DNA of 19,777 bases from positions 1 through 19,777 of the forward strand of contig NZ_JAOXLP010000045.1 of NCBI RefSeq assembly GCF_025791835.1. The letters run 5' to 3'. Origin of the DNA: Roseomonas xinghualingensis. GTDB taxonomy: Bacteria; Pseudomonadota; Alphaproteobacteria; Acetobacterales; Acetobacteraceae. The notes beneath the pieces were generated by a model. That model was given only the letters and a program-made list of their open reading frames with translations, searched no databases and was not told the origin of the DNA. Positions 1,183 to 19,777 of the stretch are shown here, piece after piece (position 1 is the first letter of the stretch; each line of letters begins with the position of its first letter). Made by a program: the position numbers and the translations under genes.

Positions 1183-1220
1183 GAGCAACCTTGATCTTCC
1201 CCTGATTTGATGGACAGGGA

Positions 1221-2081: not shown

Positions 2082-2107
2082 CTCGGGGTTTCCGAGAAGA
2101 TGCCGAT

Positions 2108-3335: not shown

Positions 3336-3337
3336 AT

Positions 3338-3643
3338 GGCTTTTTCTAAAATGTCACGCTCAAGGCGTGCGCGCTCCAGTTCACGGCGCAGGCGCGCAAT
3401 CTCGGCGGCCTGATCCGCCGGCGAAGATGCTGAGCCAGATGGCGAAGCAACAGAGCCGCTGCCTGCCGTAACGGGCTGCAGCCGCGGCGCCTCACCATTC
3501 TGCCGTCGCCGCCAGCTGCGCAGCATGGAGGGCTGGATGCCCAACTCGCCGGCCACTTGTGTCAGCGGGCGGCCACTGGAGCGCAACAGCGCGACCGCCT
3601 CCTGCTTGAACTCCGGCGCGAACTCTCGCCGTCTCTTGTTCAT
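3338..3643 (-). pseudogene. IS3-family orfA, 3' end displaced by the IS30 insertion
   Basis: orfA encodes the DNA-binding, leucine-zipper half of the IS3 transposase. The start MNKRRREFAPEFKQEAVALL is the usual HTH_Tnp_1 domain. A serine/alanine-rich linker and a coiled coil (AEIARLRRELERARLERDI) follow. The frame reaches LEKA and then enters the IS30 terminus, reading about 85 unrelated residues to a stop at 3086. The original last codons (IGIFSETPR and stop) are found on the far side of the IS30 element at 2107-2081. Because only about nine residues were displaced, the N-terminal part could still be made as a fusion. Confidence 0.8.
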
Positions 3644-3709
3644 CGGACACCTTCCTCGCTCCGTAGAGCTTACTCAGGGGTGTCCATCAATTCGAAGGAA
3701 GATCAACCT

Positions 3710-3731
3710 GCACCAAATCTGCGGAAGAGCC
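3710..3731. repeat. Outer terminal end of the disrupted ISL3 element
   Basis: The sequence after the IS3 target duplication (GCACCAAATCTGCGGAAG then AGCC) reads on the opposite strand as a GGCTCTTCC-type terminus, which is usual for ISL3-family ends. Joining 1187 to 3710 without the IS3 element restores a normal short distance between the transposase stop codon and the end of the element. The partner end lies outside the window or has been lost, so no 8-bp target duplication can be tested. Confidence 0.5.
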
Positions 3732-3819
3732 CGGTTAGGGGTGAAGTTGCCACTGAGAGTTGACCCATGTTCGGACGCTAGCCTCGGCCTTTTGGGCGGG
3801 GGCGGCGGGAGTGTTGGAC

Positions 3820-5349
3820 ATGGCGTTGTTGAGCGTTATCCGGCGCTGGCATGTCCGGGAGCACCTGTCGATCCGCTTGATCGCCCGCCGGACCGGCCTG
3901 TCGCGGAACACCATTCGTAAGTACCTGCGCTCAGGCGCGGTGGAGCCGGTTTTCAGGGCACCGGATCGCCCCAGCAAGCTGGATCCCTTTGCCGAGCGAC
4001 TGGCGGCTTGGCTGCGGGCGGATGCCCGCAGGCCGCGCAAACAGAAACGCACGGCCCGGCAGTTCCACGCGGAGCTGGTCGGGCTCGGCTATGATGGCTC
4101 ATGCCGGCGTGTCGCGGCCTTTGTGCGGGCGTGGCGGGACGACTGGCTCCGCCAGCAGCAGACCACCGGCCGCGGCGTCTTCGTGCCCCTGGCCTTCGGT
4201 CCGGGTGAGGCGTTCCAGTTCGACTGGAGCGAGGAGCACGCCATCCTCAGTGGCGAGCGCACCAAGCTGCAGGTCGCCCATCTCAAGCCCTGCCACAGCC
4301 GGGCTTTCCTGGTGCGGGCTTACCTGCTGCAGACGCACGAGATGCTGTTCGATGCCCACAACCATGGCTTTCGTGTACTGGGCGGCGTGCCGCGGCGCGG
4401 CATCTACGACAACATGCGCACCGCCGTCGACCGGATCGGCCCGAGCCGCGAGCGGCAAGTCAATGCCCGCTTCCTGGCCATGGCGAGCCACTATCTGTTT
4501 GAGCCCGAGTTCTGCAATCCAGCATCGGGTTGGGAGAAAGGTCAGGTCGAGAAAAACGTCCAGGACGCGCGGCACCGGCTGTGGCAGCCCATGCCCCAGC
4601 TCGCCAGCCTGGAGGCGCTGAACGCCTGGCTGGAACAACGCTGCCTCACCCTGTGGGAGGAGATCCCGCACGGGACTGAGCCCGGCAGTATCGCGGCCGT
4701 CTGGCAGCAGGAGGTGGGCTGCCTGATGCCGGTTCGGCGGCTCTTCGACGGCTTCGTGGATGAGACCAAGCGGGTCTCGCCGACCTGCCTCGTGCACTTT
4801 GACCGCAATCGCTACAGCGTGCCCGCCTCCTTCGCCAACAGCCCGGTCAGCCTGCGGGTCTATCCCGACCGCATCGTGGTGGTGGCCGAGGGCGCCGTCA
4901 TCTGCGAGCACCGGCGGGTCATCGTGCGTTCGCATCATGGGCAGGGCCGGACGATCTATGACTGGCGCCACTACCTCGCCGTGATCCAGCGCAAACCCGG
5001 CGCCCTACGCAACGGCGCGCCCTTCGCCGAGCTGCCCGAGGCCTTCCGGCAACTTCAGCGCCACCTGCACGGCCGGTCCGGCGGCGACCGGGATATGGTG
5101 GAGATCCTCTCCCTGGTCCTCCAGCACGATGAGCAGGCCGTGCTCGTCGCCGTGGAGATGGCCTTGCAGGACGGCGTCTCCACCAAGACCCACATCCTGA
5201 ACCTGCTGCACCGGCTCACCGATGGAGCAACCTCTCAGGTGCCGCCGATCGAGGCGCCCCAGGCCCTGGTACTGGCGCAGGAGCCCAAGGCCAACGTCGC
5301 CCGCTATGACAGCCTGCGCCCGAGGCAGGGAGGCCGTCATGCGTCATGA
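3820..5349 (+). CDS. istA: IS21-family transposase IstA
   Basis: IstA is the DDE transposase of the element and works with the IstB ATPase. An N-terminal helix-turn-helix ([20 protein letters not shown]) is followed by the integrase core with [20 protein letters not shown] and [11 protein letters not shown], which carry the catalytic D, D and E. A C-terminal domain ([13 protein letters not shown]) is usual for the family. I chose the ATG at 3820 because a GGGAG lies 8 bases upstream and the protein then begins [11 protein letters not shown], like its relatives. The frame is also open from an ATG at 3760, but that start lies in the terminal repeat. The product is 509 residues. It overlaps istB by 11 bases. 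Confidence 0.92.
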
Positions 5350-6121
5350 CCCGGCGGCCGCGGCCATCACCATCATGCTGCGCAGCCTCAAGATGCACGG
5401 TATGGCGCAGGCCGCGACCGAACTGACCGAGCAGGGCGCGCCCGCCTTCCAGAGCGCGATCCCCATCCTGTCGCAGCTGCTCAAGGCGGAGATCGCCGAG
5501 CGGGAGGTCCGCTCCATCGCCTACCAGCTCAAGGCCGCACGGTTCCCGACCTACAAGGACCTGGCGGGCTTTGACTTCGCCAGCAGCCAGATCAACGAAG
5601 CCCTGGTCCGCCAGCTCCATACCGGTGTCTTCATGGAGAAAGCCGACAACATCGTGCTGGTCGGTGGGCCCGGCACAGGAAAGACCCATATCGCCACCGC
5701 GCTCGGCGTTCAGGCGGTCGAGCGCCACCGCAAGCGCGTGCGGTTCTTCTCCACGGTCGAACTGGTCAACATCCTCGAGCAGGAGAAAGCGGCAGGGAAG
5801 ACCGGGCAGGTCGCCGCCCGCCTGCTCCACGCCGACCTGCTGATCCTCGACGAGCTGGGATACCTGCCGTTCAGCGCCTCGGGCGGTGCCCTGCTGTTTC
5901 ACCTGCTCAGCAAGCTCTACGAGCAGACCAGCGTCATCATCACCACCAATCTCAGCTTCAGTGAGTGGGCGGCGATCTTCGGAGATGCCAAGATGACCAC
6001 CGCTCTCCTCGACCGGCTCACCCACCACTGCCACATCCTGGAGACCGGAAACGACAGCTTCCGCTTCAGGAACAGCTCCGCCACCCAAGCCCAGCGTGAA
6101 AGGAAGTCACCGCCAAACTGA
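5339..6121 (+). CDS. istB: IS21-family helper ATPase IstB
   Basis: This 260-residue AAA+ ATPase, related to DnaC, assembles on target DNA and recruits IstA. The Walker A motif GGPGTGKT is at about residues 109-116, Walker [13 protein letters not shown] at 167-178, and the sensor region is [12 protein letters not shown]. The ATG at 5339 overlaps the end of istA, which implies translational coupling. The frame is open further upstream, but the N-terminus [19 protein letters not shown] agrees with the family. The sequence is intact. Confidence 0.93.
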
Positions 6122-6199
6122 CGGGATCTGAAACCCCCGCATCCACAACCCGGGTCAGATCCTCGTGGCAACCCCGGGTCGGCTCTCAGTGGCAATCAA

Positions 6200-6815
6200 C
6201 AGCCTCTCGTCCACGAGACGATCAGTGCCAGGAAGATCGCGGACGTGCTGGAGGTGCCGTTCTTGGCTGGCTTCTTCCAGGAGCAGGCTCGGCATCGTGA
6301 GCTTCGTTGCGGACCGGCGTCTCTCCGGCAGGGTGGCCCGCTGCCGTTGTGCAGGGAGCGCGAGACCCACCGCACCTCGACCAGGCGAAGGTCGCCGCAG
6401 GGCAGTTCAACCACCTCGCCTTCGACGTCCACCAGGGCGAGCCCGCTGCCGGACGGCTTCCTGTCGAGTACGAGCGCGCCGCCCTTCCCGTCGGCCGTCG
6501 CGACCATGGTCTCCTGCCACTTGCCAGGCTTGATGCTGGACGGCGTCGCCGAGGGCTGGTCCAGATTAGCCAAGACGACCCGTCAGTGCGCTAAGTCCGC
6601 TCCCGGTCGAACCCGGCGGAAGCCGCTTGCTTCCGTGCCCCCTGTTCGGCCACCAGTTCCCGAAAAGTTCGCGCTTCGCGTTGTCTATCTGACAGCCGAC
6701 GCTCTGCCCTCGGCCAGCACACGGAAGAGGATGGTTGCCTCTCTCCCCGCCACTGCCGTGCCTGGCCCGGCAAAGCTCACGACCAGATAGCTCAAGGAGG
6801 AGTTCTCGTTCGTAT
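6200..6815. other. Gene remnants between the IS21 element and the first operator
   Basis: About 600 bases have long open frames on both strands but no convincing gene. On the plus strand the frame from the IS21 end reads HETISARKIADVLEVPFL, which looks like the helix-turn-helix end of a small regulator or IrrE-like protein cut by the IS21 insertion; it then runs into low-quality sequence. On the minus strand a frame from a possible TTG at 6573 reads KPGKWQETMVATADGKGGAL and VDVEGEVVELPCGDLRLVEV, which look protein-like, before degenerating. I cannot assign a function to either. Confidence 0.3.
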
Positions 6816-6830
6816 TGTTATATTATAACA
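6816..6830. promoter_or_regulatory. Zur-like operator, copy 1
   Basis: TGTTATATTATAACA is a perfect inverted repeat with 7-bp arms around one central base, in AT-rich surroundings unlike the rest of this GC-rich window. From memory it matches the proteobacterial Zur (zinc uptake regulator) operator core GTTATA-N-TATAAC. It ends 15 bases before the ATG of the small gene at 6846. A bound repressor there would cover the promoter, and the site itself contains TATTAT/TATAAC as a possible -10 box. I infer zinc-dependent repression of that gene. Confidence 0.65.
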
Positions 6831-6845
6831 TATCGATATCCTGGA

Positions 6846-7205
6846 ATGGCAAGAGGGATTTCTGCCGTGGCATGCTCCAGCCACAACGACGTCACGTCAC
6901 GCGACGCGATCTGGTACCGCTACGATGGCGACGACTGGGACAGCTACGACGCCCTTCCGCCCGGCGTCCGGCGGCGGATGCAAGACCATGCCTACGACCC
7001 CTGGGCCGTAAACATGTTCAAGGTCTGGAAGCTGTTCCGGCGGCGCCACGCCAGTTCGGTCCGCGCTGAGCGCTCGCTGCTGAACCATCTCGATCTCTGC
7101 GAGCGAATGGAGCTTGAGGAGTTCGACATCACGCACCGTCGTGCCACCGGCACTGCCCTCCCGCATGTCGCCGCAGGGGTCAGCGTTCTCAGATCGATCC
7201 GATGA
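6846..7205 (+). CDS. Small conserved hypothetical protein, possibly zinc-regulated
   Basis: The product is 119 residues and basic, with no signal peptide or membrane helix. The central part (WYRYDGDDWDSYDALPPGVR, about residues 23-42) and the C-terminus (ALPHVAAGVSVLRS) look conserved. The pattern of W-x2-YDALPP-x-VRRR followed by a helical region recalls DUF6525-type proteins of alphaproteobacteria, but I hold that loosely. The ATG at 6846 is preferred because it follows the Zur-like operator; the frame is open upstream to 6735 but that part is arginine/serine-rich and not protein-like. No strong ribosome binding site is visible. The gene precedes the TonB receptor operon by 180 bases and has its own copy of the operator, so the two are probably co-regulated. 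The function is unknown. Confidence 0.6.
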   Translation: MARGISAVACSSHNDVTSRDAIWYRYDGDDWDSYDALPPGVRRRMQDHAYDPWAVNMFKVWKLFRRRHASSVRAERSLLNHLDLCERMELEEFDITHRRATGTALPHVAAGVSVLRSIR

Positions 7206-7213
7206 ACGGCGCT

Positions 7214-7254
7214 CGTCCCGCGAAGAAGCGGCCCTTGTTCTGAACAGCGGGACG
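7214..7254 (+). terminator. Possible hairpin after the small gene
   Basis: CGTCCCGC at 7214-7221 pairs perfectly with GCGGGACG at 7247-7254 across a 25-base loop. It lies 9 bases after the stop codon of the small gene and could mark the end of that transcript. There is no T-run and the loop is large, so the evidence is weak. Confidence 0.25.
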
Positions 7255-7321
7255 GCTGTGGCTTTGCAGTGACAGGGACCATGGGCAGGGCCATCGCGAG
7301 ACCAACACCCCCTAGTGAAGA

Positions 7322-7340
7322 TGTTATGTTATAATGTATC
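7322..7340 (+). promoter_or_regulatory. Zur-like operator, copy 2, overlapping a -10 box
   Basis: TGTTATGTTATAATGTATC matches the corresponding 19 bases of the operator at 6816 (TGTTATATTATAACATATC) at 16 positions. The TTAT-N3-ATAA core is preserved as an inverted repeat. The site contains a perfect TATAAT (7330-7335), so a repressor bound here would occlude the -10 region of the operon promoter. No good -35 box is seen 16-18 bases upstream. The site lies 46 bases before the preferred start of the TonB receptor gene. I infer repression of the whole downstream operon when zinc is plentiful. Confidence 0.65.
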
Positions 7341-7385
7341 ATCCTTGGCCTACATGTGATCTCCTGGCCAGAAATGCTGTCACCG

Positions 7386-9350
7386 ATGGATCTCCCGACG
7401 TCACTCCGCCGCACGACGGTCGCTGCGGCCCTCCTCGTCTCCGGGGCCACCGGCAAACCCGGGGCCGAAGCTCAGGGAGTAGTCCAGGTTCCGATGGTAG
7501 CCGTCACGGCCACGGGAACCGACCGCTCCCTCGAGGACGTCCCGGCCAGCATGACGGTGATCACGCGCGAGGGGCTGGAGAGGCGGCCGATCCAGGACCT
7601 CGCCGACGCGTTGCGGGACTCGCCGGGCATCACCATCCAGGGCGTCGGGCTGGGGCGGCAGGGCGTCAGCATCCGGGGCATGCCCTCGGACCAGACGCTG
7701 TACCTGATCGACGGGCGGCGGGTGAACGTGGCGGGCAGCGCCATCGCCCATGCCGACTTCGAACTGAACTGGGTGCCCAAGGAGGCGATCGAGCGCATCG
7801 AGGTGGTGCGCGGCCCGCTCTCCTCCCTCTACGGCTCGGACGCCCTCGGTGGCGTGGTCAATGTGATCACGCGGGCCGCGACTGACCGCTGGATTGGCGC
7901 CTTCTCCGGCTATGGGGCCCTCGCGGAGCGGGTGGACGGCAGCCAGACCCAGATCGGCGCCTATGCCGGCGGCCCGCTAATCCCGGGCGTACTGGGTCTC
8001 ACCCTTTCGGCTCAGGGCCAAACGCGGAGCGAGGTGCCGGACGCGGTGGACCCGCGCGTGACCGCGCTGGAGAACCGGAGCGGGGTGAGCGGCAACCTGG
8101 GCCTGACCTGGACGCCCACGGCCTCTCAGCGCATCGACTTCACCTATAGCCGCGGCCACGACAACCGCTGGCGCAACCTGCTCTCCAGCGGCACCGTCGC
8201 GCTGCCCTACCAATCCAAGGACGAGATCGAGCGGGAGCAGGTCTCGATCGCGCATCGCGGCACCTGGGGCTGGGGCGACACGCTCGTCCGGGCCTACCGC
8301 TCCCGGCTCCACCGCGAGAACAGCGTCAGCACCGGCACGCCGACCGGGCCGCAAACCCTGACGGACGATGTGTTCGACGGCCGCGTGACGATCCCGGTCT
8401 GGGGCTGGCATCGCTTCTCGCTCGGCGGGGAGTTGCGCGAGGAGCGCTTGGAGGACCCGACCATCAACACCTCCGGCAAGGACCGCGTGACCCATGGCGC
8501 GCTTTTCCTGCAGGACGAGATCTCCCTCACGGATCGCCTCTCCCTCACGGCGGGCGCCCGCTTCGATCACCACGAGGCCTTCGGCTGGCACACCAGCCCG
8601 CGCGCCTACCTCGTCTGGCGGGCGACCGACGAGCTGACCTTCCGCGGCGGCGTGGGATCGGGCTTCCGCGCGCCGACGCTGAAGCAGCTCTCGCCCGGCT
8701 ACAACGCGGTCGGCGGCGGCGGCCGCTTCACCATCACCGGAAACCCCGACCTGCGGCCGGAGACGAACACCAGCTACGAGGCGGGGGTGTCCTACTCGCC
8801 GGGCCTCTGGGAGGTTCGGGGCACGGTCTTCCAGAATAACCTGGAGGATCTGGTGGAGACGCTCTGCGTCCGCTCCTGCGGCGTGCGGGGGCGCGAGCTG
8901 CGGACCTACCGCAACGTGGACGAGGCCCGCATCCGCGGCGTCGAGGTCGGCGGCGGCGTCCGCCTCCCGGCCGACTTCCGCGTGGACGTGAACTACACCT
9001 TCCTCGACGCCCAGGACCTCACGGACGACCGCGAGCTGACCGAGCGCCCGCGCCATGCCATCAACGGCGTGGTGCGCTGGGAGCCGGAGGGGCCGCTCTC
9101 CATGCAGTTCCGGGCGAACTACGTCGGCCGTCAGACGGTGGTCCAGACGGTCGGGACGGGCACCGTCTACACGCCGCTCTCGCCCTACACGCTCCTCTCA
9201 CTCGAGGCGGGTTATCGCCTGACTGAGAAGGTCATCCTGCGCGCCGGGGTGGAGAACATCGGCGACGTCCGGCTGGCCAATGACCGGGAGCCGTACACCT
9301 ACGCCGACGCGGGGCGGCTCTACTTCATCGGGCTGCAGGCGAGCTTCTGA
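7386..9350 (+). CDS. TonB-dependent outer-membrane receptor
   Basis: This is a 22-strand-barrel TonB-dependent transporter of the FepA/CirA/BtuB type, which takes up a metal complex across the outer membrane using energy from TonB. Counting from the ATG at 7386 (654 residues), a signal peptide covers about 1-29 (LRRTTVAAALLVSG core) and a TonB-box-like segment VPMVAVTATG is at 35-44. The plug domain spans about 50-165 (DVPASMTVIT, GVSIRGMPSDQTLYLIDGRR). The barrel follows, with the C-terminal blocks GFRAPTLKQLSPGYN and NPDLRPETNTSYEAGVSYSP, a late extracellular segment with two cysteines (CVRSC), and a terminal phenylalanine. Other starts in frame are ATG 7374 and GTG 7356; none has a strong ribosome binding site, and 7386 gives the best signal peptide. 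The stop is 3 bases before the CobN-like gene. The Zur-like operator upstream suggests a zinc complex or zinc-bearing cofactor as substrate. Confidence 0.93.
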   Translation: MDLPTSLRRTTVAAALLVSGATGKPGAEAQGVVQVPMVAVTATGTDRSLEDVPASMTVITREGLERRPIQDLADALRDSPGITIQGVGLGRQGVSIRGMPSDQTLYLIDGRRVNVAGSAIAHADFELNWVPKEAIERIEVVRGPLSSLYGSDALGGVVNVITRAATDRWIGAFSGYGALAERVDGSQTQIGAYAGGPLIPGVLGLTLSAQGQTRSEVPDAVDPRVTALENRSGVSGNLGLTWTPTASQRIDFTYSRGHDNRWRNLLSSGTVALPYQSKDEIEREQVSIAHRGTWGWGDTLVRAYRSRLHRENSVSTGTPTGPQTLTDDVFDGRVTIPVWGWHRFSLGGELREERLEDPTINTSGKDRVTHGALFLQDEISLTDRLSLTAGARFDHHEAFGWHTSPRAYLVWRATDELTFRGGVGSGFRAPTLKQLSPGYNAVGGGGRFTITGNPDLRPETNTSYEAGVSYSPGLWEVRGTVFQNNLEDLVETLCVRSCGVRGRELRTYRNVDEARIRGVEVGGGVRLPADFRVDVNYTFLDAQDLTDDRELTERPRHAINGVVRWEPEGPLSMQFRANYVGRQTVVQTVGTGTVYTPLSPYTLLSLEAGYRLTEKVILRAGVENIGDVRLANDREPYTYADAGRLYFIGLQASF

Positions 9351-9353
9351 GCC

Positions 9354-12300
9354 ATGTGCGCCATCTTCGTCGCGCTTGTTCTCCTCCTCGCACCGGCCCT
9401 GGCGCGTGCGGAGGCGCCGCTGGTCCGGGTGATCGCGAGCGACTTCGTGCTGCCCGGCAAGTTCGAGCGCCTGGCGCGTTGGGCCGAGGAGGCCGGGTAT
9501 CGGGTCGAGGGGGCACGCGTCGGCAGCGATGCGGGTGAAGCGCGCGACTGGATCGGGGGCGCCGCGCTCGTCATCCTGGACACGCCGCGTCCGGCTGACC
9601 TGGCACGGGTGCAGCAGCGCCTGGGCGACGCGCTGGAGGCGGAGGGGCGGCCCTGGATCCGTGTCGGTGGCGGGCCTCCAGCCTCGGGCGGTCTCCCCCA
9701 GGAACACGCCCGTCGGCTGGTAGGGTACTACGCCGCGGGGGGTGAGGCGAACTTCCGGGCCATGTTCACCTACCTGGGCCGTCTCCGGGACGGTCGGGTC
9801 ATGTCGGACCTGCCATTGCCCCAGCGCCTGCCGCGGGCTGGCATCTATCACCCGGCGGCCCGGACGGTCTTCGCCTCGGTGCAGGACTACCTCGCATGGG
9901 GACAGGGCCGCTGGGCAGGCTCCGCGCCCAGGGTCGCCTTCGCCATCAGCGACGGCGTGGTCACGGACGGAGACACCCGCCTCGTCGATGCCCTGATCGC
10001 TCGCGCCGAGGCGGCAGGCCTCGCGCCCGTCGCCTTCTGGTTCGACGCCGCCCTCGAGGACGGCCTGCGCGCCGTGCTGGTCCCGGCCGGAGCGGACGCC
10101 CTGGTCAACCTCACCCACATGCAGAACGGCGAGGCTCGACAGAGGGAACTCGCCGCGCTCGGCATTCCCGTGATCGCCGCCTTCACCTGGCGGGAGGGCG
10201 ATCCGGCGGCCTGGGAGGCTTCCGCATCCGGCCTGGGCGCCGCCACCGCCGCCACACTCCTCGTCACCCCCGAAGCGTGGGGTATGAGCGACCCGATGGT
10301 GGTCGCGGCCGTCTCGGGCGGCGAGGTGGTGCCGATCCCCCGGCAGGTGGAGGCGCTGATGGCCAAGCTCCGCCGCCTCACCGTGCTGCGGCACCGGCCC
10401 GCCGCGGAGAAGCGGGTGGCGGCGATGTTCTGGAACTACCCGGCGGGGGAGAAGAACCTCTCCGCCTCCAATCTCAACCTGCCCCGCAGCATCGCCGGGA
10501 TGACCCGCGCGCTCGGCGGAGCGGGCTATGCCGTGCCGGTGGCGGAGGAGACCCGCATCATCGAGGCCGGACAGGCGATGCTGGGCGGCCTCTACCGGCC
10601 GGAGGCGCTGGATGGGCTGCTACGCGACGGCCTGGCCGATACGATTCCCGTCCAGCGCTATCGAGCCTGGCTGGACACCCTGCCGCAGGCGCGGCGCGAC
10701 GCCATGCTGGAGCGCTGGGGCGCCCCCGAGGCAGACCGTGCCGTGCGCGAGATCGACGGCGAGCGCCGCTTCGTCATCCCGCGCCTCGCCCTGGGCAACC
10801 TCGCCATCCTGCCGCAGCCGCCCCGCAGCGGTTCCCCGGGCGAGGGCTACCACGACGCCGCCCTGCCGCCGCCGCACCTCTACATGGCCGCCTATCTCTG
10901 GGTCCGCGAGAGCTGGGGCGCGGACGCCCTGATCCACCTCGGCACGCACGGCACGCAGGAGTGGCTGCCCGGCAAGGACCGCGGCCTCGCCGCCGCCGAC
11001 TACCCCTTCCTGGCCCTGGGCGACCTGCCCGTCCTCTACCCCTACATCCAGGACAACGTCGGCGAGGCGATGCAGGCGCGTCGCCGCGGCCGGGCCACGA
11101 CCATCAGCCATCAGACGCCCGCCTTCGCGCCCTCGGGCCTCTACGACGAGCTTCGCGACCTCCACGCGCTGATCCACGAGTACGGGCAGCTGGAGGAGGG
11201 CGCCGTGCGCGACGGCACGCGCGACCGGATCCTAGCTGCCGTGCGCAAGGCGAGCCTGCAGCGTGACATGGGATGGGACGAGGGGCGGATCGGCGGCGAC
11301 TTCCCTGGCTTCCTGTCGGCACTGCACGACCACCTGCACACCCTCTCGGCCCAGGCCATGCCGCTCGGCCTTCACACCTTCGGTGATCCCGCGGTGCCGG
11401 AGCACCGGCTGGCGACCGTAATCCAGCAGCTCGGGCGCCCCTTCCTCGAGCGGGTTGAGACCGAGCCGGACGAGGTCTTCGCCGGATCGCCCGAGGCCTT
11501 CCGGGAGAGCGCGGCCTACCGCCTGCTGCACCGGCACCTGCGGGAGGGAGTGCCCGCCGCCGAGGTCACCGACCCCGACCTGCGAGCGCTGGTGGAGCGC
11601 GCGGCCGCGCTCGACCGCCACCTGGCCGAGACGGGCGAGATGGAAGCCCTGCTGACCGGGCTGGCGGGCGGCTTCGTCCTGCCCGGCCCTGGCGGCGATC
11701 CGGTTCGCAGCCCCGAGGTCCCCAGCGGCCGCAACCTCTACGCCTTCGAGCCGGACCGGCTGCCCACGGCGGCCGCATACCGGGCGGGCGAGGCCGCGCT
11801 GCACCAGTTGGTCGAGGCCTATCGCGCGGAGCACGGCGGACAGGCACCGACCAAGCTCGCCTTCAGCCTGTGGTCCTCCGAGGCGATCCGCCATCTGGGC
11901 GTGGTGGAGAGCCAGGTGCTGCACGCGCTGGGCCTGCGGCCGGAGTGGGACGCGGCGGGGCGCGTGCGGCGGCTGGCGATCATCCCGGCGGCGGAGCTCG
12001 GCCGCCCGCGCGTCGATGTTGTGGTGCAGGTGACCAGCGTCTATCGTGACCAGTTCGACGGCTTCATGCGCCTGCTCGCCGATGCGGTCGACAGGCTGGC
12101 CGCGTTGGACGAGCCGGGCAATGCGGTCTTCGCGAACAGCGCCGCCGTCCGGAACCGTCTGGCCGGGCGCGGCGTGGCACCCGAACGGGCTGCGACCCTG
12201 GCCTCAGCGCGCATCTTCAGCAACGCGCCGGGCGACTACGGAAGCGGGCTGCCGCGTGCCGTGCTGGACTCCACGGCCTACGAGAACGACGCCCCGCTGG

Positions 12301-13232
12301 CGGAGCGCTTCCTGGGCCGCTTGGGATACGCCTACAGAGCGCGGGGCTGGGGGGAGAGGATGGAGGGCGGCAACCTCTTCGCCGAGCAGCTACGGGGCGT
12401 GCAGGCCGCGGTGCTGTCGCGCTCCTCAAACGTCAACGGCGTGCTCTCCACGGATCACCCGTTCGAGTATCTCGGCGGCCTCTCCATGGCCGTGCGGCAC
12501 CTCGACGGTGCGAGTCCATCCCTCTACATAGCCGATCTCAGGCGCCCCGAGGCGCGCATGAAGGGAGCGGCCGCCTTCCTGTCCGACGAGCTGCGTGGCC
12601 GATACCTGAACCCGCAGTGGATCCAGTCCATGCAGGCCGAGGGCTACGCGGGCACCCTGGCCATGACCAACCTGGCGAACAACCTCTTCGGCTGGCAGGT
12701 TTCCGATCCTTCGATGGTGCGGCCGGACCAGTGGCAGGCGCTCCACGACACCGTCGTCCGGGACAGCCGGAACCTCGGGCTGGATGCGTGGTTCGAGCAG
12801 CACAACCCGACCGCGCAGGCTCAGGTGATCGCCCGCATGGCCGAGGCCATCCGCAAGGGCTACTGGGACGCTGACGCCCGTACCCGGCAGGAGCTGGCCG
12901 AGCGCTTCGCCGAACTCGCGGAGCGGCACGGCGCCGAGGCGGGGGCGCCCGCCACGCGGGCCTTCCTGGCCGCAGCGAGCGCGGGCTTCGGGCTGGAGGC
13001 GGCCAGCGCGCCCGAAGCGGCCGCCCAGGCCGCCTCTGCCGCCGCGCCAGCACAGCCCGTCTCGGAGGGTGAAGGGACGGAGAGTGTGCGTGGCCAGGTC
13101 CTCCAGCAGGCGACCCCCACGTTCCCGGATCCGCTTCCCTGGTCGAGATGGGCCGCGCTCGCCGCTCTTTCCCTCTGCCTGCTAGCCGGTGGCGCCCGGC
13201 AGGCCCTTCTCACCTCTCGAACCGAGGCCTGA
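9354..13232 (+). CDS. Secreted, membrane-anchored CobN/ChlH-like chelatase
   Basis: This 1292-residue protein belongs to the CobN/magnesium-chelatase H family, whose large subunits bind a tetrapyrrole and insert a metal. The family block LIHLGTHGTQEWLPGK is at about 527-541 (His528, His532, Glu536), followed by YPYIQDNVGEAMQARRRG. The C-terminal half has the family segments WSSEAIRHLGVVESQ (about 840), ELGRPRVDVVVQVTSVYRDQ, ARIFSNAPGDYGSGLP (about 953), VLSTDHPFEYLGG and LNPQWIQSMQAEGYAG. Unlike cytoplasmic CobN, it starts with a clear signal peptide (MCAIFVALVLLLAPALARA, cleavage near residue 19). It ends with an alanine-rich linker and one hydrophobic helix (WAALAALSLCLLAGG, about 1263-1286) before a short basic tail, so the body should face the periplasm. 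No CobS/CobT or ChlI/ChlD ATPase is present in the window. It lies between the receptor and an ExbB-like gene with gaps of 3 and 11 bases. Automated pipelines would probably call it cobaltochelatase CobN; its location and neighbours argue for another role, possibly taking metal out of an imported complex. Confidence 0.9.
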   Translation: MCAIFVALVLLLAPALARAEAPLVRVIASDFVLPGKFERLARWAEEAGYRVEGARVGSDAGEARDWIGGAALVILDTPRPADLARVQQRLGDALEAEGRPWIRVGGGPPASGGLPQEHARRLVGYYAAGGEANFRAMFTYLGRLRDGRVMSDLPLPQRLPRAGIYHPAARTVFASVQDYLAWGQGRWAGSAPRVAFAISDGVVTDGDTRLVDALIARAEAAGLAPVAFWFDAALEDGLRAVLVPAGADALVNLTHMQNGEARQRELAALGIPVIAAFTWREGDPAAWEASASGLGAATAATLLVTPEAWGMSDPMVVAAVSGGEVVPIPRQVEALMAKLRRLTVLRHRPAAEKRVAAMFWNYPAGEKNLSASNLNLPRSIAGMTRALGGAGYAVPVAEETRIIEAGQAMLGGLYRPEALDGLLRDGLADTIPVQRYRAWLDTLPQARRDAMLERWGAPEADRAVREIDGERRFVIPRLALGNLAILPQPPRSGSPGEGYHDAALPPPHLYMAAYLWVRESWGADALIHLGTHGTQEWLPGKDRGLAAADYPFLALGDLPVLYPYIQDNVGEAMQARRRGRATTISHQTPAFAPSGLYDELRDLHALIHEYGQLEEGAVRDGTRDRILAAVRKASLQRDMGWDEGRIGGDFPGFLSALHDHLHTLSAQAMPLGLHTFGDPAVPEHRLATVIQQLGRPFLERVETEPDEVFAGSPEAFRESAAYRLLHRHLREGVPAAEVTDPDLRALVERAAALDRHLAETGEMEALLTGLAGGFVLPGPGGDPVRSPEVPSGRNLYAFEPDRLPTAAAYRAGEAALHQLVEAYRAEHGGQAPTKLAFSLWSSEAIRHLGVVESQVLHALGLRPEWDAAGRVRRLAIIPAAELGRPRVDVVVQVTSVYRDQFDGFMRLLADAVDRLAALDEPGNAVFANSAAVRNRLAGRGVAPERAATLASARIFSNAPGDYGSGLPRAVLDSTAYENDAPLAERFLGRLGYAYRARGWGERMEGGNLFAEQLRGVQAAVLSRSSNVNGVLSTDHPFEYLGGLSMAVRHLDGASPSLYIADLRRPEARMKGAAAFLSDELRGRYLNPQWIQSMQAEGYAGTLAMTNLANNLFGWQVSDPSMVRPDQWQALHDTVVRDSRNLGLDAWFEQHNPTAQAQVIARMAEAIRKGYWDADARTRQELAERFAELAERHGAEAGAPATRAFLAAASAGFGLEAASAPEAAAQAASAAAPAQPVSEGEGTESVRGQVLQQATPTFPDPLPWSRWAALAALSLCLLAGGARQALLTSRTEA

Positions 13233-13243
13233 ACGCAAACCCG

Positions 13244-13717
13244 ATGAACGCGCTCGAATCCGCACTCTATGACCTCTCCGGCCTGCTGCTCGTGCCCGTG
13301 CTGCTGCTGATCCTGCTCTCGCTCACCTACGCGGTCTTCGCGCTGGGTGCCTTCCTGGTGGAAGCTGTGCAGCGGTGGCGCGGGACTGCTGCGTCGCACC
13401 TGCGTGCCCACCAGCGCCGGACCGGCGCGGTGAGCGACGACCTGGAACTGTGGATCATGAAACGGTTGGAGTGGCTGCGGATCACAGCGCGCAGCGCGCC
13501 CATGCTCGGCCTGATCGCGACCATGATCCCGATGGGTCCAGCCCTGCTGGCCCTGACGCGGAGCGATGCGCGCGGGGTCGGCGAGAACCTCGTGGTGGCC
13601 TTCTCGGCCGTCATCCTCGCCCTGACAGCGGCCGCGATCAGCTTTCTGGTGCTGACCGTCCGGCGGCGCTGGCTGCTGGAGGAGCTGCGGGCCATCGAGC
13701 GCGGGGCGGCCGCCTAA
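13244..13717 (+). CDS. MotA/TolQ/ExbB-type proton channel protein
   Basis: This 157-residue membrane protein resembles the channel-forming subunit of proton-driven motors. Three hydrophobic helices are visible, at about 14-38 (LLLVPVLLLILLSLTYAVFA), 87-105 and 116-139 (NLVVAFSAVILALTAAAISF). The family signature ARSAPMLGLIATMIPMG at 82-98 corresponds to the AP-x-LGLLGTV block of ExbB/TolQ. It is shorter than E. coli ExbB (about 240 residues). The ATG at 13244 lies 11 bases after the CobN-like stop; the frame is open upstream, but only inside the chelatase gene. Its TAA overlaps the next ATG (TAATG), so the two are translationally coupled. I infer a dedicated motor for this system rather than for the general TonB apparatus. 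Confidence 0.85.
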   Translation: MNALESALYDLSGLLLVPVLLLILLSLTYAVFALGAFLVEAVQRWRGTAASHLRAHQRRTGAVSDDLELWIMKRLEWLRITARSAPMLGLIATMIPMGPALLALTRSDARGVGENLVVAFSAVILALTAAAISFLVLTVRRRWLLEELRAIERGAAA

Positions 13718-14046
13718 TGCGCTTCCTGGACAACGACGAGGCTGACGACCCGATCCTGTCGGTGGTCAACCTCGTGGACCTCTTCCTCGTCGTCATCGGC
13801 ATCCTGATGATCGTCATCGTCCGCAACCCGCTGAACCCCTTCTCGGCGGAGCGGGTGGTCGTGGTCGAGAACCCCGGCCAGGCAGACATGCGGATCACTG
13901 TGAAGGAGGGCCAGGAGCTGACCCGCTACGAGGCGAGTGGGCAGATCGGCGAGGGACAGGGTAAGCGGGCGGGAGTGACCTACCGGCTACCGGACGGAAG
14001 GATGGTCTATGTTCCCGAGTCCAATGACACGCAGCGTCAGAACTGA
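13717..14046 (+). CDS. DUF2149 protein, ExbD-like single-pass membrane partner
   Basis: The 109-residue product matches what I recall of DUF2149: a short cytoplasmic start, one membrane helix and a small soluble domain containing VVENPGQADMRITVKEGQEL and GEGQGKRAGVTYRLPDG, ending near MVYVPES. The helix (about 17-35, VNLVDLFLVVIGILMIVIV) has an aspartate at residue 21 near its start, in a setting like the proton-carrying aspartate of ExbD/TolR (their PFIDVMLVLL). With an ExbB-type gene directly upstream and one base of overlap, it probably forms the stator pair with it, with its soluble domain in the periplasm beside the chelatase. DUF2149 genes are known to me as neighbours of CobN-like and ExbB-like genes, notably in archaea. 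Confidence 0.85.
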   Translation: MRFLDNDEADDPILSVVNLVDLFLVVIGILMIVIVRNPLNPFSAERVVVVENPGQADMRITVKEGQELTRYEASGQIGEGQGKRAGVTYRLPDGRMVYVPESNDTQRQN

Positions 14047-14138
14047 ACGATTGGGATAAAAGCCACATGAAAAGCGATGCAACCGCAACGGACGAGCCGC
14101 CCGTCATTCGCCGCATTCAAAGAGCTGAGGGCACATCC

Positions 14139-14230
14139 ATGATGCGCCTTCGTGTGGGCGTGACCGCTCTCGTCATGGCCATCGGCCATCCCTGGACTGT
14201 GTTGCCCGGGTCGGCTGGGCGGGCTGGTTA
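14139..14230 (+). pseudogene. Truncated fifth gene of the operon, cut by the IS6 element
   Basis: An ATG at 14139 follows GAGGG with 7 bases of spacing, the best ribosome binding site in the operon. The short frame begins MMRLRVGVTALVMAIGHPWT, with a charged start and a hydrophobic stretch like a signal peptide or first membrane helix, and continues VLPGSAGRAG before hitting a stop exactly where the IS6 terminus begins. The same frame is open from an ATG at 14067. I infer that a secreted or membrane protein was encoded here and that all but its first 25-30 residues was lost when the IS6 copies inserted. The identity cannot be told from this fragment. Confidence 0.45.
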
Positions 14231-15068
14231 GGTTAGGTTCCTGAGGAGGTACCGGCTCGGCAGGCATTGCCACGTTGTAGGAGGGTGGCCGGAACGAAGC
14301 GGCTGGGCGAAGCTGGCCGGATGACGCCAGAGCCCGCCACATACCCTGGCTACCGCTTTCCGGCCGAGGCATCCGGCACGCGGTGTGGCTCTACCACCTC
14401 TTCAGCCTCAGCCTTCGTGATATCGAGCTGATCCTGGCTGAGCGGGGCATCCTCGTCACGCACGAGAGCATCCGGCGCTGGGTGCTGAAGTTCGGGGCCA
14501 AGTTCGCCGGGAGGCTCCGCAAGCGCCGGCCACGGCCCGGGGACACCTGGCACTTGGATGAATTGTTCCTGAAGGTCAACGGCGAGTTGCACTACCTTTG
14601 GCGCGCGGTGGATCAGAATGGGGTCGTGCTCGACATCCTCGTGCAGCCGCGCAGGAACGCGAGTGCGGCCAAGCGCTTCTTCAAGCGCCTGCTGAAGGGA
14701 TTGCGCTACAGGCCGAAGCGCCTGGTCACCGATGGGCTGCGCAGCTACGGCGTCGCGCACCGCGAGGTGATGCCCGAGGTGCGGCATCGGGTCAGCCGAT
14801 ACCTCAACAATCGGGCGGAGAACTCGCACCGGCCCACGCGGCGCAGAGAGCTCCAGATGCAGCGCTTCAAGTCACCTCAGCAGGCGCAACGCTTCCTCTC
14901 AGCACACGCGATGATCTACGGCCACTTCCGGCCGCGGCGGCATCTGATGACCGCAGCCCAGCACCGTCGCGCTCGCGCCAGGGCCTTTCGGGTGTGGCGC
15001 GAGGAGACCTGCGTCCAGAGCGCAGCGTGATCCCACCCGTTCCCTGCCCCGCGAAAAAACCCAACCTT
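14226..15068 (+). mobile_element. IS6-family insertion sequence, nearly complete
   Basis: The element of about 840 bp is defined by its transposase and by weakly matching ends: AGGTTAGGTTCCT on the left and, on the complement, AGGTTGGGTTTTT on the right (10 of 13). The boundaries are therefore approximate. The length and the roughly 95-base leader before the transposase fit the IS6 family. I see no clear target duplication. It inserted at the 3' end of the chelatase operon. Confidence 0.6.
14321..15030 (+). pseudogene. IS6-family transposase with an N-terminal frameshift
   Basis: IS6-family DDE transposase. The catalytic residues are visible in TWHLDELFLK, LVTDGLRSYG and NNRAENSHRPTRRRE, followed by the usual end (FRVWREETC). 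The natural start appears to be the ATG at 14321 (MTPEPATYPGYRFPAE). After YRFPAE the frame must shift, near 14368, to continue as IRHAVWLYHLFSLSLRDIEL, so one base has been lost relative to the expected sequence. The remaining frame can start only at internal sites (GTG 14383, read as MWLYHLF), giving a 215-residue product lacking the first residues. It is probably inactive, or expressed only by frameshifting. Confidence 0.75.
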
Positions 15069-15084
15069 AGGTCAACAAGTTGAC

Positions 15085-15207
15085 GATGCCTCTACGGCCA
15101 TTTCCGTCCTCGCCGGCACCTTATGGCCGCCGGCGAGTACCGCCGCGCCCGGACCAAGGCCTTTCGGATCTGGCGGCAGGAAACCTGTGCCCAAGCGGCC
15201 GCCTGAT
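15085..15207 (+). pseudogene. C-terminal fragment of a second IS6-family transposase
   Basis: The plus strand from about 15094 reads LYGHFRPRRHLMAAGEYRRA followed by RTKAFRIWRQETC and AQAAA-stop, clearly homologous to the C-terminus of the adjacent IS6 copy (FRPRRHLMTAAQHRRARARA). The rest of the gene is missing to the left, where a 14-bp inverted repeat GTCAACAAGTTGAC (15071-15084) marks the joint. About 50 bases after the stop, AAACAACTTGCCAA (15245-15263 region) looks like an IS6 terminus. Confidence 0.6.
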
Positions 15208-15261
15208 CCTGCCACACCCTCCGTCACACGACCACACTCACCCTCTCGCCAAACAACTTGC

Positions 15262-15690
15262 CAATGCCTGTTGATCCCATCGTGGGCAGAAAGAAAGCGC
15301 TGCGCCTGGCCGGCGGACTTGAAGCGCTTCATCTGTCGTTCTCGTCGTCGTGTCGGCTGATGGGAGTTCTCCGCCCTGTTGTTCAGCCCCTTCTGCTGGC
15401 GGTGTTTGACGGAAGCCATCACCTCCTTCTTTGCGGCGCCGTAGCTTGCCAGCTTGTCGGTGATCATGACCCTTGGTGGCCGCATCTGCCGCTTCAGCAA
15501 CTTCCTGAGTAGCCGCTTGGCTGCTTGCCTGTTTCTCCGGCTTTGCACCAGCACGTCGGGCACCATCCCTGCCTGGTCGGCGGCACGCCAAAGCCAACGC
15601 GTCACCCTGTTGATCTTGAGGGCGACCTCGTCCAGGTGCCACCTGTCACCGGCGCGAGGCAGCCGGTGGTTCCGTTCGCCGCCAGCTCGT
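15262..15690 (-). pseudogene. Internal fragment of a third IS6-family transposase
   Basis: On the minus strand a continuous frame reads LPRAGDRWHLDEVALKINRV, then RWLWRAADQAG, MITDKLASYGAAKKEV and NNRAENSHQPTRRRERQMKR, ending near AQRFLSAHDGINRH. All three catalytic acidic residues are present. The helix-turn-helix N-terminus is not recognisable upstream, and the C-terminal tail is replaced by unrelated sequence after about 15262, so both ends are truncated. It faces the second IS6 fragment, tail to tail. Confidence 0.7.
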
Positions 15691-15699
15691 TGCCGACCA

Positions 15700-15955
15700 A
15701 GTGGTCGCCTCTGCGGAAGACGACCCTCAACCGGAGCACCTCCTCAGCGGCCCCGACCGGCCGAAAGGGCGGATATAGCTGATCTCCAGGAGGCCGTGTC
15801 CCGTCCTCAGTGGCGTGACGGCGGTGACCATCACTGGGCTCGTAGGCCATCCGGATGGGCGCTGGGGCGCCCTGTAGCCCGAACCACCGCCCGGGCTCAA
15901 TTGAGGAGGCCATGTCGTGCGATCAACCGTCGGTCTGCCCACAGCACGGCCTCTC
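15700..15955. other. Region without a recognisable gene
   Basis: Several overlapping frames are open on both strands, but none reads like a protein family I know and none has a convincing start. The base composition is as GC-rich as its surroundings. It is probably decayed sequence between the IS6 fragments and the phosphatase remnant. Confidence 0.3.
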
Positions 15956-15959
15956 GCGG

Positions 15960-16134
15960 GTCGCCGCCCAAGCGTTGCGAGCTCCAGCACGTAGGCTTCC
16001 TGCGCCCGGGTCTCGATCATGCCGGCCAGGGCTGCGCGAACGGCCTTAGCCCCCACGCCCGCCTCCATTCCCAGCTCGATCAGCAGGCGGGCGGCGACGT
16101 TGCCGCCTCGAGGTACGCCATCCCAGCGGCAGAG
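15960..16134 (-). pseudogene. Remnant of a tyrosine/dual-specificity phosphatase-like gene
   Basis: The minus strand reads LCRWDGVPRGGNVAARLLIE, then LGMEAGVGAKAVRAALAG and MIETRAQEAYVLELA. This recalls the C-terminal half of bacterial dual-specificity phosphatases (HC-x5-R-[ST]-GTVAARLL ... IETxAQExYV). The active-site loop is broken: there are six rather than five residues between the cysteine and the arginine, and the serine/threonine after the arginine is a glycine. There is no N-terminal part to the right. I regard it as a decayed fragment; the assignment rests on short motifs only. Confidence 0.4.
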
Positions 16135-16204
16135 GGCACTTCCGACGGCCTAAGGCATCGAGCGCTCAGATGACAGTTGACCATATCCGAGGAGCGTGGC
16201 ACCA

Positions 16205-16216
16205 CTGGTATACTAG
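16205..16216. promoter_or_regulatory. Possible GntR-type operator upstream of the amidohydrolase
   Basis: CTGGTATACTAG is an inverted repeat around GTATAC with one mismatched pair, in a locally AT-rich patch. The T-x-GTATAC-x-A form is common in operators of FCD-type GntR regulators of catabolic genes. It lies about 185 bases before the amidohydrolase start, and no regulator gene is in the window, so this is a weak suggestion. Confidence 0.25.
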
Positions 16217-16399
16217 TTGGATACGAAAATACTGAAGCAGCATCTGCTCCGATTGCCGTGCGTCATCCAAGCCGGGGAGCGCGGCGTCAGGTGCGGTGCG
16301 TCGACATCTGGTGCAACGCCTGCAGCCTATTCTTCACCGGAAAGGCGGGTGAAGGATTCACAATAGCCCCGACGCTGACGCTTACTGGAGAGGACATCC
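16217..16399 (+). other. Upstream region of the amidohydrolase gene
   Basis: An open frame (16177-16428) overlaps this stretch and the following gene but has no ribosome binding site and no recognisable motif, so I do not call it. The region probably holds the leader and promoter of the amidohydrolase gene. Confidence 0.3.
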
Positions 16400-17296
16400 A
16401 TGCCCGACTTCGCACCTGGCGCGATTGACGCAGTCGTAAATTACGAGTTCGCCGATCCCGAGCTCGAGCGAAAAGGATGGGCTGAGAACTTTATTCGCGG
16501 CAAAATCGGCGCCGAGGAAAGCCGCATCAAAGGCCTTACGCCCGAGGCGTTCATCGAGAAGATGGACCGCGCAGGCATCGAGCACGTCTTCCTGCTAGCC
16601 GTGAAGGCGGGCAGCGCAATGACCACCATCAACCGGCGCATTCCCTATGAGAAGGTGGCAGAGCTATGCCAGCGCTACCCCGGCCGCTTCAGCGGTCTGG
16701 CGGGCGTCGACCCCACCGAGGGCATGCACGGGCTGCGCGAACTGGAGCGGGCGGTGAAGGAGCTGGGCTTCATCGGCGCCCACCTCTACCCGCACTGGTT
16801 CGAGATGGCCCCCGACCACGCGCGCTACTACCCGATCTACGCCAAGTGCTGCGAACTCGACATCCCCATTCAGATGCAGGTCGGCCACTGCCTGCGCTAC
16901 TCAGCGGAGCGACCCCTGAAGAGCGTCGGCCGGCCGATCACGCTGGACACCATCGCCTGCGACTTCCCCGACTTGAAGCTGGTGGGCATCCATATCGGCT
17001 GGCCCTGGACGGAGGAAATGATCGCGGTCGCCTACAAGCACCCGAACGTCTACATTGGAACCGACGCCTACGCGCCGAAGCACTGGGACGAGAAGTTCGT
17101 CCGCTACATGAACAGCTTCGGGCAGGACAAGGTGCTCTTCGGCACGGACTACCCGGTGATCGACCTGGAGCGCGCCCGGGCGGAGTTCGAGGAGCTCGGC
17201 CTGCGCGAGGGCGCGAAGTGGAAGGTGCTGCGCGACAACGCCATCCGTCTCTACGGCCTGAAGCTGCGACTGTCCGGCGAGAGGGCCGCGGTCTGA
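16400..17296 (+). CDS. Amidohydrolase-2 family protein with an unusual N-terminus
   Basis: This 298-residue TIM-barrel protein belongs to the amidohydrolase-2 superfamily branch that includes ACMSD-type decarboxylases and 2-pyrone-dicarboxylate lactonase-like hydrolases. Visible landmarks are FIGAHLYPHWF (His128, His132), MQVGHC (His163), VGIHIGWPW (His198) and VLFGTDYPV (Asp250), which fit the later metal and catalytic positions. The first strand, which normally carries an H-x-H metal motif, reads AIDAVVNYEF and has no histidine. The start at 16400 is supported by GGAGAGGA a few bases upstream. It converges on the cyclic amidohydrolase gene across a 38-base gap with a hairpin. A role in breakdown of a ring compound together with the minus-strand genes is likely; the substrate is unknown. 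Confidence 0.85.
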   Translation: MPDFAPGAIDAVVNYEFADPELERKGWAENFIRGKIGAEESRIKGLTPEAFIEKMDRAGIEHVFLLAVKAGSAMTTINRRIPYEKVAELCQRYPGRFSGLAGVDPTEGMHGLRELERAVKELGFIGAHLYPHWFEMAPDHARYYPIYAKCCELDIPIQMQVGHCLRYSAERPLKSVGRPITLDTIACDFPDLKLVGIHIGWPWTEEMIAVAYKHPNVYIGTDAYAPKHWDEKFVRYMNSFGQDKVLFGTDYPVIDLERARAEFEELGLREGAKWKVLRDNAIRLYGLKLRLSGERAAV

Positions 17297-17303
17297 CACT
17301 GGA

Positions 17304-17330
17304 AGGGCCAGGGCCGATGGCCCCGGCCCT
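17304..17330. terminator. Hairpin between convergent genes
   Basis: AGGGCCAGGGCC and GGCCCCGGCCCT form a 12-bp stem with one mismatch around the loop GAT. It fills the gap between the stop codons of the two convergent genes and could end transcription from both sides. There is no T-run, so it is not a classical intrinsic terminator. Confidence 0.55.
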
Positions 17331-17334
17331 CAGA

Positions 17335-18735: not shown

Positions 18736-18831
18736 GAGGGCGTGTCCTCGGCACCGGCCGCGCGGCACGGTGCCGGCACGGCCCGCAGGGATTGGGAAAG
18801 GGCCGGGCGGCACGACACCGCCCTAGCCGGC

Positions 18832-19524: not shown

Positions 19525-19598
19525 TGACATGACTCCGTTTGGGTGCGGCGGGCACCGGGCGAAGCGCCGCCGGTTTGTAGGAAGTGGAGCAACCTCGC

Positions 19599-19777
19599 CT
19601 AGGCGTGCTGGGTCATCCCCTCGGGAATGACGGTCTTCACGAGGGAGGCGTCCAGGGCCTCGTAGTCGTGGTAGCCGATGGTGTCGTAAAGCTGGGCGCG
19701 GGTCTGCATCCGCTCCACCATGCCCTGGGTGCCGCCGTCGCGGTTGATGGCGGCGTAGAGCTCCTCCATCGCCCGGT
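19599..19777 (-). CDS. PEP mutase/isocitrate lyase family lyase, C-terminal part
   Basis: Only the last 59 codons are in the window; the gene continues past the right edge. The sequence MEELYAAINRDGGTQGMVER, then MQTRAQLYDTIGYHDYEALD and a last segment KTVIPEG, is the usual C-terminus of isocitrate lyase/phosphoenolpyruvate mutase superfamily proteins such as oxaloacetate decarboxylase, 2,3-dimethylmalate lyase and carboxyphosphonoenolpyruvate mutase. The metal site is outside the window, so the reaction cannot be named. It lies 75 bases upstream of the cysteine amidohydrolase on the same strand and probably belongs to the same catabolic operon. Confidence 0.75.
   Translation of the reverse strand, partial: RAMEELYAAINRDGGTQGMVERMQTRAQLYDTIGYHDYEALDASLVKTVIPEGMTQHA

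Follow-up and report, generated by a model that had tools for sequence, protein, structure and literature searches.

We examined an operon of four plus-strand genes in a 19,777-nucleotide stretch of DNA (the window) from Roseomonas xinghualingensis (contig NZ_JAOXLP010000045.1, positions 1 to 19,777; contig C69 in our numbering), a Roseomonas-like alphaproteobacterium whose 4.88-Mb genome, in 132 contigs, is 99% complete. The genes encode a TonB-dependent outer-membrane receptor, a CobN-like protein, an ExbB-like inner-membrane protein, and a DUF2149 protein, and are spaced by gaps of 3, 11, and −1 bases. Sequence comparisons indicate that the operon is almost certainly under zinc (Zur) control. 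We further propose, with confidence evenly balanced for and against, that its CobN-like protein represents a zinc-scavenging branch of the BtuS/HmuS-type de-chelatases, a proposal in which the substrate, the direction of the reaction, and the proton coupling are the inferred parts. Publications on one species, Pseudomonas aeruginosa, already describe such an operon and its control by zinc, PA1922-PA1925 (PA14_39650-39620) matching the present genes one for one in identical order; what is new, as far as our searches reached, is the join with a de-chelatase, which is well supported for control, cellular location, and gene set and moderately supported for chemistry. A first-pass annotation made from the sequence alone had delimited the same four genes, and their coordinates and families were confirmed. 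Its belief that no mechanism of this type had been described is not supported, as HmuS acts in this way on heme iron with the same gene set (PMC12583661) and PA1922-PA1925 is the same operon, already recognized as Zur-regulated (PMC4542158, PMC8531726).

The evidence for zinc control begins at the promoter. The Zur-like operator that had been noted there, TGTTATAATGTATCA (7327-7341), matches 12 of the 14 positions of the scoring consensus TGTTATA-N-TATAACA and ends 14 bases upstream of the GTG start codon of the receptor gene at 7356 (in-frame ATG codons at 7374 and 7386 are alternative starts). This consensus was chosen independently of the present loci, and the P. aeruginosa Zur site GCGTTATAGTATATCAT resembles it (PMC8456098). 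Across the whole genome, a slightly longer Zur pattern with at most two mismatches occurs at just four places, and a backward control pattern at none. The first two places are the four-gene operon and the adjoining DUF6525 gene. The third precedes genes for an ABC ATPase and an ABC-3 permease; in NCBIfam, these two match the zinc-related AztA and AztB best. The fourth lies before the gene for a ZnuA-family binding protein with AztC as its best match; all three Azt matches fall under the cut-offs of those models. A Fur-family protein encoded on contig C64 has Zur as its best match, at 112 bits under a cut-off of 167.

Zinc control is also borne out across relatives of the operon. A scan of one genome per species yielded 402 relatives, and the best 80 of these 402, plus the window, make up the 81 sequences analyzed; many of the 80 loci are close kin, so the counts do not represent independent events. 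Genes for ExbB-like and DUF2149 proteins lie downstream of cobN in 79 of 81 sequences, the contigs of the other two (L070 and L085) ending too soon. Upstream, similarity identified a receptor gene next to cobN in 72 sequences, and Pfam assigned 7 more as TonB-dependent receptors; the contigs of the remaining two (L064 and L070) begin too late. All four genes occur together in 78 of 81, which is every sequence whose contig extends sufficiently in both directions. From −350 to +150 around the annotated start, a box of at least 11/14 is present in 51 of 79 promoters (two of the 81 were dropped as too short), compared with 6 of 1580 dinucleotide-preserving shuffles. From −600 to +400, for which a further four of the 79 were dropped, such a box is found in 56 of 75 operons, the window included, compared with 11 of 750 segments of the same length elsewhere in the loci. 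Matches of at least 12/14 number 42 in 39 kb of promoter segments versus 13 in the rest of the 1.59 Mb spanned by 78 loci. The search for this gene neighborhood and its Zur sites, which the first-pass annotation had suggested as a check, found both.

Predicted Zur boxes accompany the operon across alpha-, beta-, and gammaproteobacteria, with examples in Bradyrhizobium (L027), Thauera (L096), and Halopseudomonas (L037). These examples argue against the view that Zur regulation of PA1922 "seems unique to P. aeruginosa," expressed in a review that covered 150 bases upstream within Pseudomonas (PMC10393844). In two of the loci counted as lacking a box, L025 (Bosea) and L098, the box is located ahead of an additional gene at the head of the operon. 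In L025 (5276-8944), the Zur box is followed by a gene for the zinc metallochaperone ZigA, a GTPase scoring 616 against a cut-off of 600, which runs into the receptor gene and then cobN, and L098 (5371-6872) has the same order with a ZigA-similar protein. In these two lineages, the operon is extended by a predicted zinc chaperone gene, and a ZigA-type GTPase is encoded in the flanks of 9 of the 81 sequences.

The gene order of the P. aeruginosa operon in strain PAO1 is given in PMC9431628 and PMC4542158, where PA1924 is called ExbD, and its CobN-like protein (P0081) is 61% identical over 93% to the one described here. The Zur site and the induction upon zinc shortage have been published (PMC4542158, PMC8531726, PMC9431628). 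PA1922-PA1925, which have a predicted Zur site, rise 45- to 147-fold in a znuA mutant, an induction that ranks with the strongest of any gene set in that zinc-starved strain (PMC4542158), and Zur binds the PA1922 promoter by gel shift (PMC8531726). Upon zinc depletion, PA1922, PA1923, and PA1925 were more abundant, with p mostly >0.05, and PA1924 was undetected (PMC11761036). Authors have either assigned no function to the four genes or guessed that they import cobalt or free zinc (PMC4542158, PMC8531726, PMC8456098, PMC11761036, PMC13083405, PMC10393844). The operon analyzed here differs from that of P. aeruginosa in being alphaproteobacterial and flanked by transposase genes.

The CobN-like protein matches PF02514 over its full length (E-value 1e-293, with 7e-7 for PF01618 in the ExbB-like protein and 3e-27 for PF09919 in the DUF2149 protein) and scores 1858 bits against the NCBIfam model NF004644 ("CobN," an exported subfamily), the cut-off of which is 1248; its nearest named relative, from Roseomonas sp. 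WA12, is 86% identical. The related cobaltochelatase CobN and magnesium chelatase ChlH/BchH are cytoplasmic and work with an ATP-driven partner. The present protein is very probably periplasmic, not cytoplasmic, in line with the export signal and C-terminal anchor that the first-pass annotation had assigned to it. Its N terminus has a hydrophobic stretch closing in an A-x-A site, and a second hydrophobic stretch lies at the C terminus; both are judged by hydropathy only, with a threshold of 1.6 that the C-terminal stretch, at 1.59, approaches from slightly below. We aligned 105 family proteins with five HmuS proteins and three other PF02514 proteins of the genus (113 rows), the 105 comprising 30 database proteins and 75 locus rows that were retained from 82 CobN-like open reading frames in the 81 sequences after those outside 1150-1420 aa were dropped. 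The threshold is reached at the N terminus in 91 of the 105 family rows and at the C terminus in 86; of the three other PF02514 proteins, one (G008) has the N-terminal stretch and none the C-terminal one.

In a sequence comparison with proteins of solved structure, the CobN-like protein scores highest against the heme dechelatase HmuS (PDB 9D26; 428 bits), followed by CobN (375 bits) and ChlH (371 bits). HmuS removes iron from heme, a reaction for which His-538 is required, and His-1209, together with Glu-1212, faces His-538 (EMBO J 2025, PMC12583661). The residue numbers of that paper match the expected letters in our HmuS rows, with Glu-1281 in four of the five. His538, Asp1208, His1209, and Glu1212 of HmuS are all kept here (Table 1), as is the heme ligand His254, whose equivalent is present in 102 of 105 family rows; that of Glu577 is present in all 105. 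The two rows of B12-type CobN (G003 and G012) retain His538 and Glu577 alone among these six positions and thus lack the equivalents of His1209, Glu1212, and His254 that are present here. The G008 row, by reading probably BchH, additionally has Asp1208 and His1209 equivalents, and in ChlH the position of His1209 is likewise occupied by a histidine. In this small comparison, the matches to Glu1212 and His254 are peculiar to HmuS and the aligned family. The link to metal stripping drawn by the first-pass annotation gains from both the sequence match to HmuS and the retained catalytic residues, which suggest that the reaction of the CobN-like protein is, on balance, probably metal removal.

Four further histidines (604, 608, 658, and 662) are conserved in the family and missing from the rows compared with it, one of HmuS and three others. 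In a structure predicted with a 48-row alignment (pLDDT 86.5; an earlier alignment-free model, with pLDDT 40, was dropped), His604/608 and His658/662 form two HxxxH pairs on two helices, a possible metal site. The predicted body matches CobN, ChlH, and HmuS alike, and the fold was therefore of no use in discriminating HmuS from CobN.

The two small membrane proteins of the operon resemble ExbB-ExbD and TolQ-TolR in that one carries a PF01618 domain (29.4 bits, above the gathering score of 22.9) and the other a single hydrophobic helix. An hhalign comparison of the ExbB-like protein with two ExbB/TolQ reference rows gave a chance-level match (E 0.27). The helix of the DUF2149 protein contains an ExbD-like N-x-x-D motif that is invariant in 79 of 79 sequences and aligns with the motif Asp of ExbD, and the domain following the helix should, from its sequence, be periplasmic. 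Unlike ExbD, DUF2149 forms a Pfam family of its own, with a weak profile match to ExbD; PF09919 is the sole domain reported for the protein, and PF02472 (ExbD) is not reported. A search of the genome for PF02472 found two other loci, an exbB-exbD-tonB cluster (L117) and a tolQ-tolR pair (L118), with ExbD and TolR assigned by family and their neighbors by reading. Because the genome encodes this separate exbB-exbD-tonB set, the receptor needs no private energizer. The ExbB-like/DUF2149 pair accompanies the exported CobN-like protein here and HmuS in the published hmu operon, and CobN proteins are said not to occur in such operons (PMC13227078), a distribution that fits a motor acting on the chelatase. 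We put forward proton drive of the chelatase by this pair only tentatively; HmuU and HmuV have been drawn as powering the receptor HmuR in heme import (PMC12583661).

That drawing instead suits an alternative in which zinc or a zinc complex enters through the receptor, the ExbB-like/DUF2149 pair does no more than energize that receptor, and the CobN-like protein serves as a periplasmic zinc relay without demetallase chemistry. In reviews, PA1922-PA1925 is grouped with the uptake of free zinc (PMC8456098, PMC10393844), the four family-specific histidines could bind zinc, and the receptor keeps Cys508 in 70 of 70 rows and His406 in 68 of 70. We nevertheless consider this alternative unlikely, as a mere relay would have no need for the chelatase body or for the catalytic residues of HmuS, which are conserved almost without exception, and as the second ExbB-ExbD-TonB set leaves the receptor otherwise provided for.

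A true heme-iron de-chelatase of the HmuS type under incidental Zur control would account for the catalytic residues held in common, for the best match in the PDB, and for the gene set and order, which are those of hmuYRSTUV of Bacteroidota (receptor, membrane-anchored CobN-like protein, ExbB-family protein, and DUF2149) minus hmuY and hmuT. It is improbable in our estimation. Neither hmuY nor hmuT, nor any other extra gene, is among the four in the window, and the control, through a Zur box that sets this operon apart from hmuYRSTUV, is zinc-like rather than iron-like. Moreover, this aerobic group could use oxygen-dependent heme oxygenases. The protein itself also departs from HmuS. Met-79 of HmuS is replaced, by Ala in 71 of 105 rows including that of the window, and the methionine-rich insertion of HmuS domain IV (119 residues, 21 Met) is missing, the family having a median of 27 residues and 0 Met and a maximum of 29 residues and 2 Met at this site. 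Membership in HmuS proper was rejected on these two grounds. The family forms one group in a tree, separate from HmuS, with an SH-aLRT value of 99; the tree was quick and unrooted and drew on 56 of the 113 rows, with near-copies as its HmuS rows and the three other rows on long branches, and it therefore shows the unity of the family alone. Zinc, Zur, ExbB, and DUF2149 do not appear in the main text of PMC12583661.

A role in cobalt metabolism, whether as a cobaltochelatase or, as work on Pseudomonas has proposed, in the replacement of zinc by cobalt when zinc is lacking, is in keeping with the CobN annotation, with the raised cellular cobalt of a P. aeruginosa znuA mutant (PMC4542158), and with the repression of the P. 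aeruginosa Zur regulon by cobalt (PMC13083405). It is, however, highly improbable given that the protein is exported and that the B12-type CobN rows are without the His1209 and Glu1212 equivalents kept here. In addition, the genome contains PF02514 only once and gave no match to cbiC/cobH, the one marker gene sought, so that B12 synthesis is unlikely. Of 15 genomes of the genus, five have cbiC/cobH (G003, G004, G005, G007, and G012). Each of these five also encodes a PF02514 protein, and such a protein occurs in just two more, G008 and the present genome, making seven in all. A B12 riboswitch for the operon was found neither in the window nor in six relatives without a near Zur box. A role in B12 synthesis was rejected on the absence of cbiC, the residue differences from the B12 type, and the lack of such a riboswitch. 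A lone cobalamin riboswitch was detected in L022, on the opposite strand, before a divergent receptor gene.

The first-pass annotation had pointed to a lack of CobS and CobT and had regarded dependence on CobST encoded elsewhere as fatal to its reading. The lack is real for the window but not for the genome, in which CobT is encoded on contig C52 (G000:C52:298289-298939; CobS was not searched for). All 15 genomes of the genus encode CobT, including eight with no PF02514 match, so that it is probably not tied to the operon; it may have another job. The same count speaks against dependence on CobST.

In the mechanism that we favor, zinc scarcity would release Zur from the operator at 7327-7341, with co-transcription of the four genes, a step that draws on sequence and comparative evidence. 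The receptor, energized by the ordinary TonB-ExbB-ExbD system, would bring into the periplasm a zinc chelate, which might be a zinc tetrapyrrole or some other metallophore. There, the CobN-like protein, predicted from its sequence features to be exported and tail-anchored in the inner membrane, would bind the chelate in its central cleft, and His532 and Asp1034-His1035-Glu1038, residues that the protein does possess, might expel the metal through ligand protonation, by analogy with HmuS acting on heme. The ExbB-like/DUF2149 pair, with its buried helix Asp, could let the proton gradient drive opening or turnover of the anchored protein, a proton motor that would replace the ATP-burning CobS-CobT or ChlI-ChlD of the cytoplasmic relatives. 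The freed zinc would be taken in by an AztABC/ZnuABC-type ABC transporter, the genes for which have Zur boxes and to which the hand-over is presumed. A forward reaction, in which zinc is loaded into an imported or secreted porphyrin as a shuttle or store, would agree with metal insertion by CobN and ChlH and with the description of the HmuS reaction as the reverse of ferrochelatase (PMC12583661), but we give it very little credence because derepression under zinc shortage suits removal better than the spending of zinc and no porphyrin exporter- or synthesis-like gene is among the four. The complete version of the favored mechanism, a Zur-controlled periplasmic zinc de-chelatase of alpha-, beta-, and gammaproteobacteria with a four-histidine hand-on site and an ExbB/DUF2149 proton drive in place of an ATPase, must be considered doubtful.

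A third type of CobN was proposed by Rodionov in 2003 (as cited in PMC6460266), and the name BtuS, denoting a CobN-like protein of "metalloporphyrin salvage," is carried by an Azospirillum relative (P0026); its use for the whole present family is our choice, and a link to zinc does not appear in the parts of the BtuS literature examined. Our searches, which left subscription papers largely outside, found no literature joining a PA1922-PA1925-type operon with HmuS and none on zinc coproporphyrin as a zincophore, and the matches listed for a dechelatase paired with Zur were titles on plants and one enterobacterial metal-transport review. Joining the operon to HmuS, together with the widespread Zur boxes, poses a testable question, namely whether zinc is pulled from a chelate by a protein that the ExbB-like/DUF2149 pair drives. 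If so, periplasmic metal stripping would be an added route of zinc acquisition, and the chelatase motor would be one run by protons. Many proteins named "cobaltochelatase CobN" are probably not cobaltochelatases, and one P. aeruginosa CobN-like cluster alone stands for 4795 sequences.

Table 1. Features of the operon and its surroundings, in positions of the window; row counts refer to the 105 aligned family proteins.
Feature	Position	Strand	Remarks
TonB-dependent outer-membrane receptor, plug and barrel	7356..9350	+	PF07715 and PF00593; counterpart PA1922, by position HmuR
CobN-like (BtuS/HmuS-type) protein, 1292 aa	9354..13232	+	PF02514, NF004644; counterpart PA1923
ExbB/TolQ/MotA-family inner-membrane protein, ~157 aa	13244..13717	+	PF01618; counterpart PA1924; by family and position HmuU
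DUF2149 protein	13717..14046	+	PF09919; counterpart PA1925; by position HmuV
Zur-like operator of the operon	7322..7342	.	12/14 at 7327-7341, overlapping 11/14 at 7322-7336
Perfect Zur-type palindrome TGTTATA-T-TATAACA	6815..6831	.	14/14 at 6816-6830, before DUF6525 gene
His532 codon (HmuS His-538), in H528-LGT-H532-G	10947..10949	+	105/105 rows
Asp1034-His1035-x-x-Glu1038 codons (HmuS Asp-1208, His-1209, Glu-1212)	12453..12467	+	105, 104, and 104 of 105 rows
Stretch with His604, His608, His658, and His662	11163..11339	+	101, 102, 105, and 102 of 105 rows

Several further features of the locus were observed. Ahead of its membrane anchor, the CobN-like protein has a V-x-G-x-V-[LM] motif (13086-13103) that recurs in 89 of 105 rows and may be where the motor pair docks. 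In the receptor, His132 (65 of 70 rows) and Cys504 (55 of 70) are kept besides Cys508 and His406, and this Cys/His set is a possible ligand or metal site. The palindrome at 6816, TGTTATATTATAACA, marks a local member of the Zur regulon outside the four-gene operon, the DUF6525 gene (ATG 6849; region 6815-7205). Four of the five top-scoring DUF6525 loci of the genus (L119, L120, L121, which is the present one, and L122) have a Zur-type box of at least 11/14 within ~3.2 kb, and L123 and 15 weaker loci have none; one branch of DUF6525 may, from these sequences, be part of the Zur regulon.

Transposase genes and remnants flank the operon on both sides (196-6573 and 14383-15605). The one at 196-1182 has ISL3- and IS21-type matches in NCBIfam, and the others are of IS30, IS3, IS21, and IS6 types, assigned by reading their open reading frames. 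In a sample of 150 genomes from the taxonomic family, the CobN-like protein of the window is the sole one above the NF004644 cut-off, and related genes are annotated on plasmids in Azospirillum, a Comamonadaceae bacterium, and Diaphorobacter. From the flanking transposases and the rarity in the taxonomic family, we infer that the operon was likely transferred recently into this Roseomonas-like lineage. Beyond the downstream transposase genes, positions 16400-19530 hold genes for an amidohydrolase, a dihydropyrimidinase/allantoinase-like amidohydrolase, and an isochorismatase-family protein; together these may form a small cluster for the breakdown of a hydantoin-like compound.

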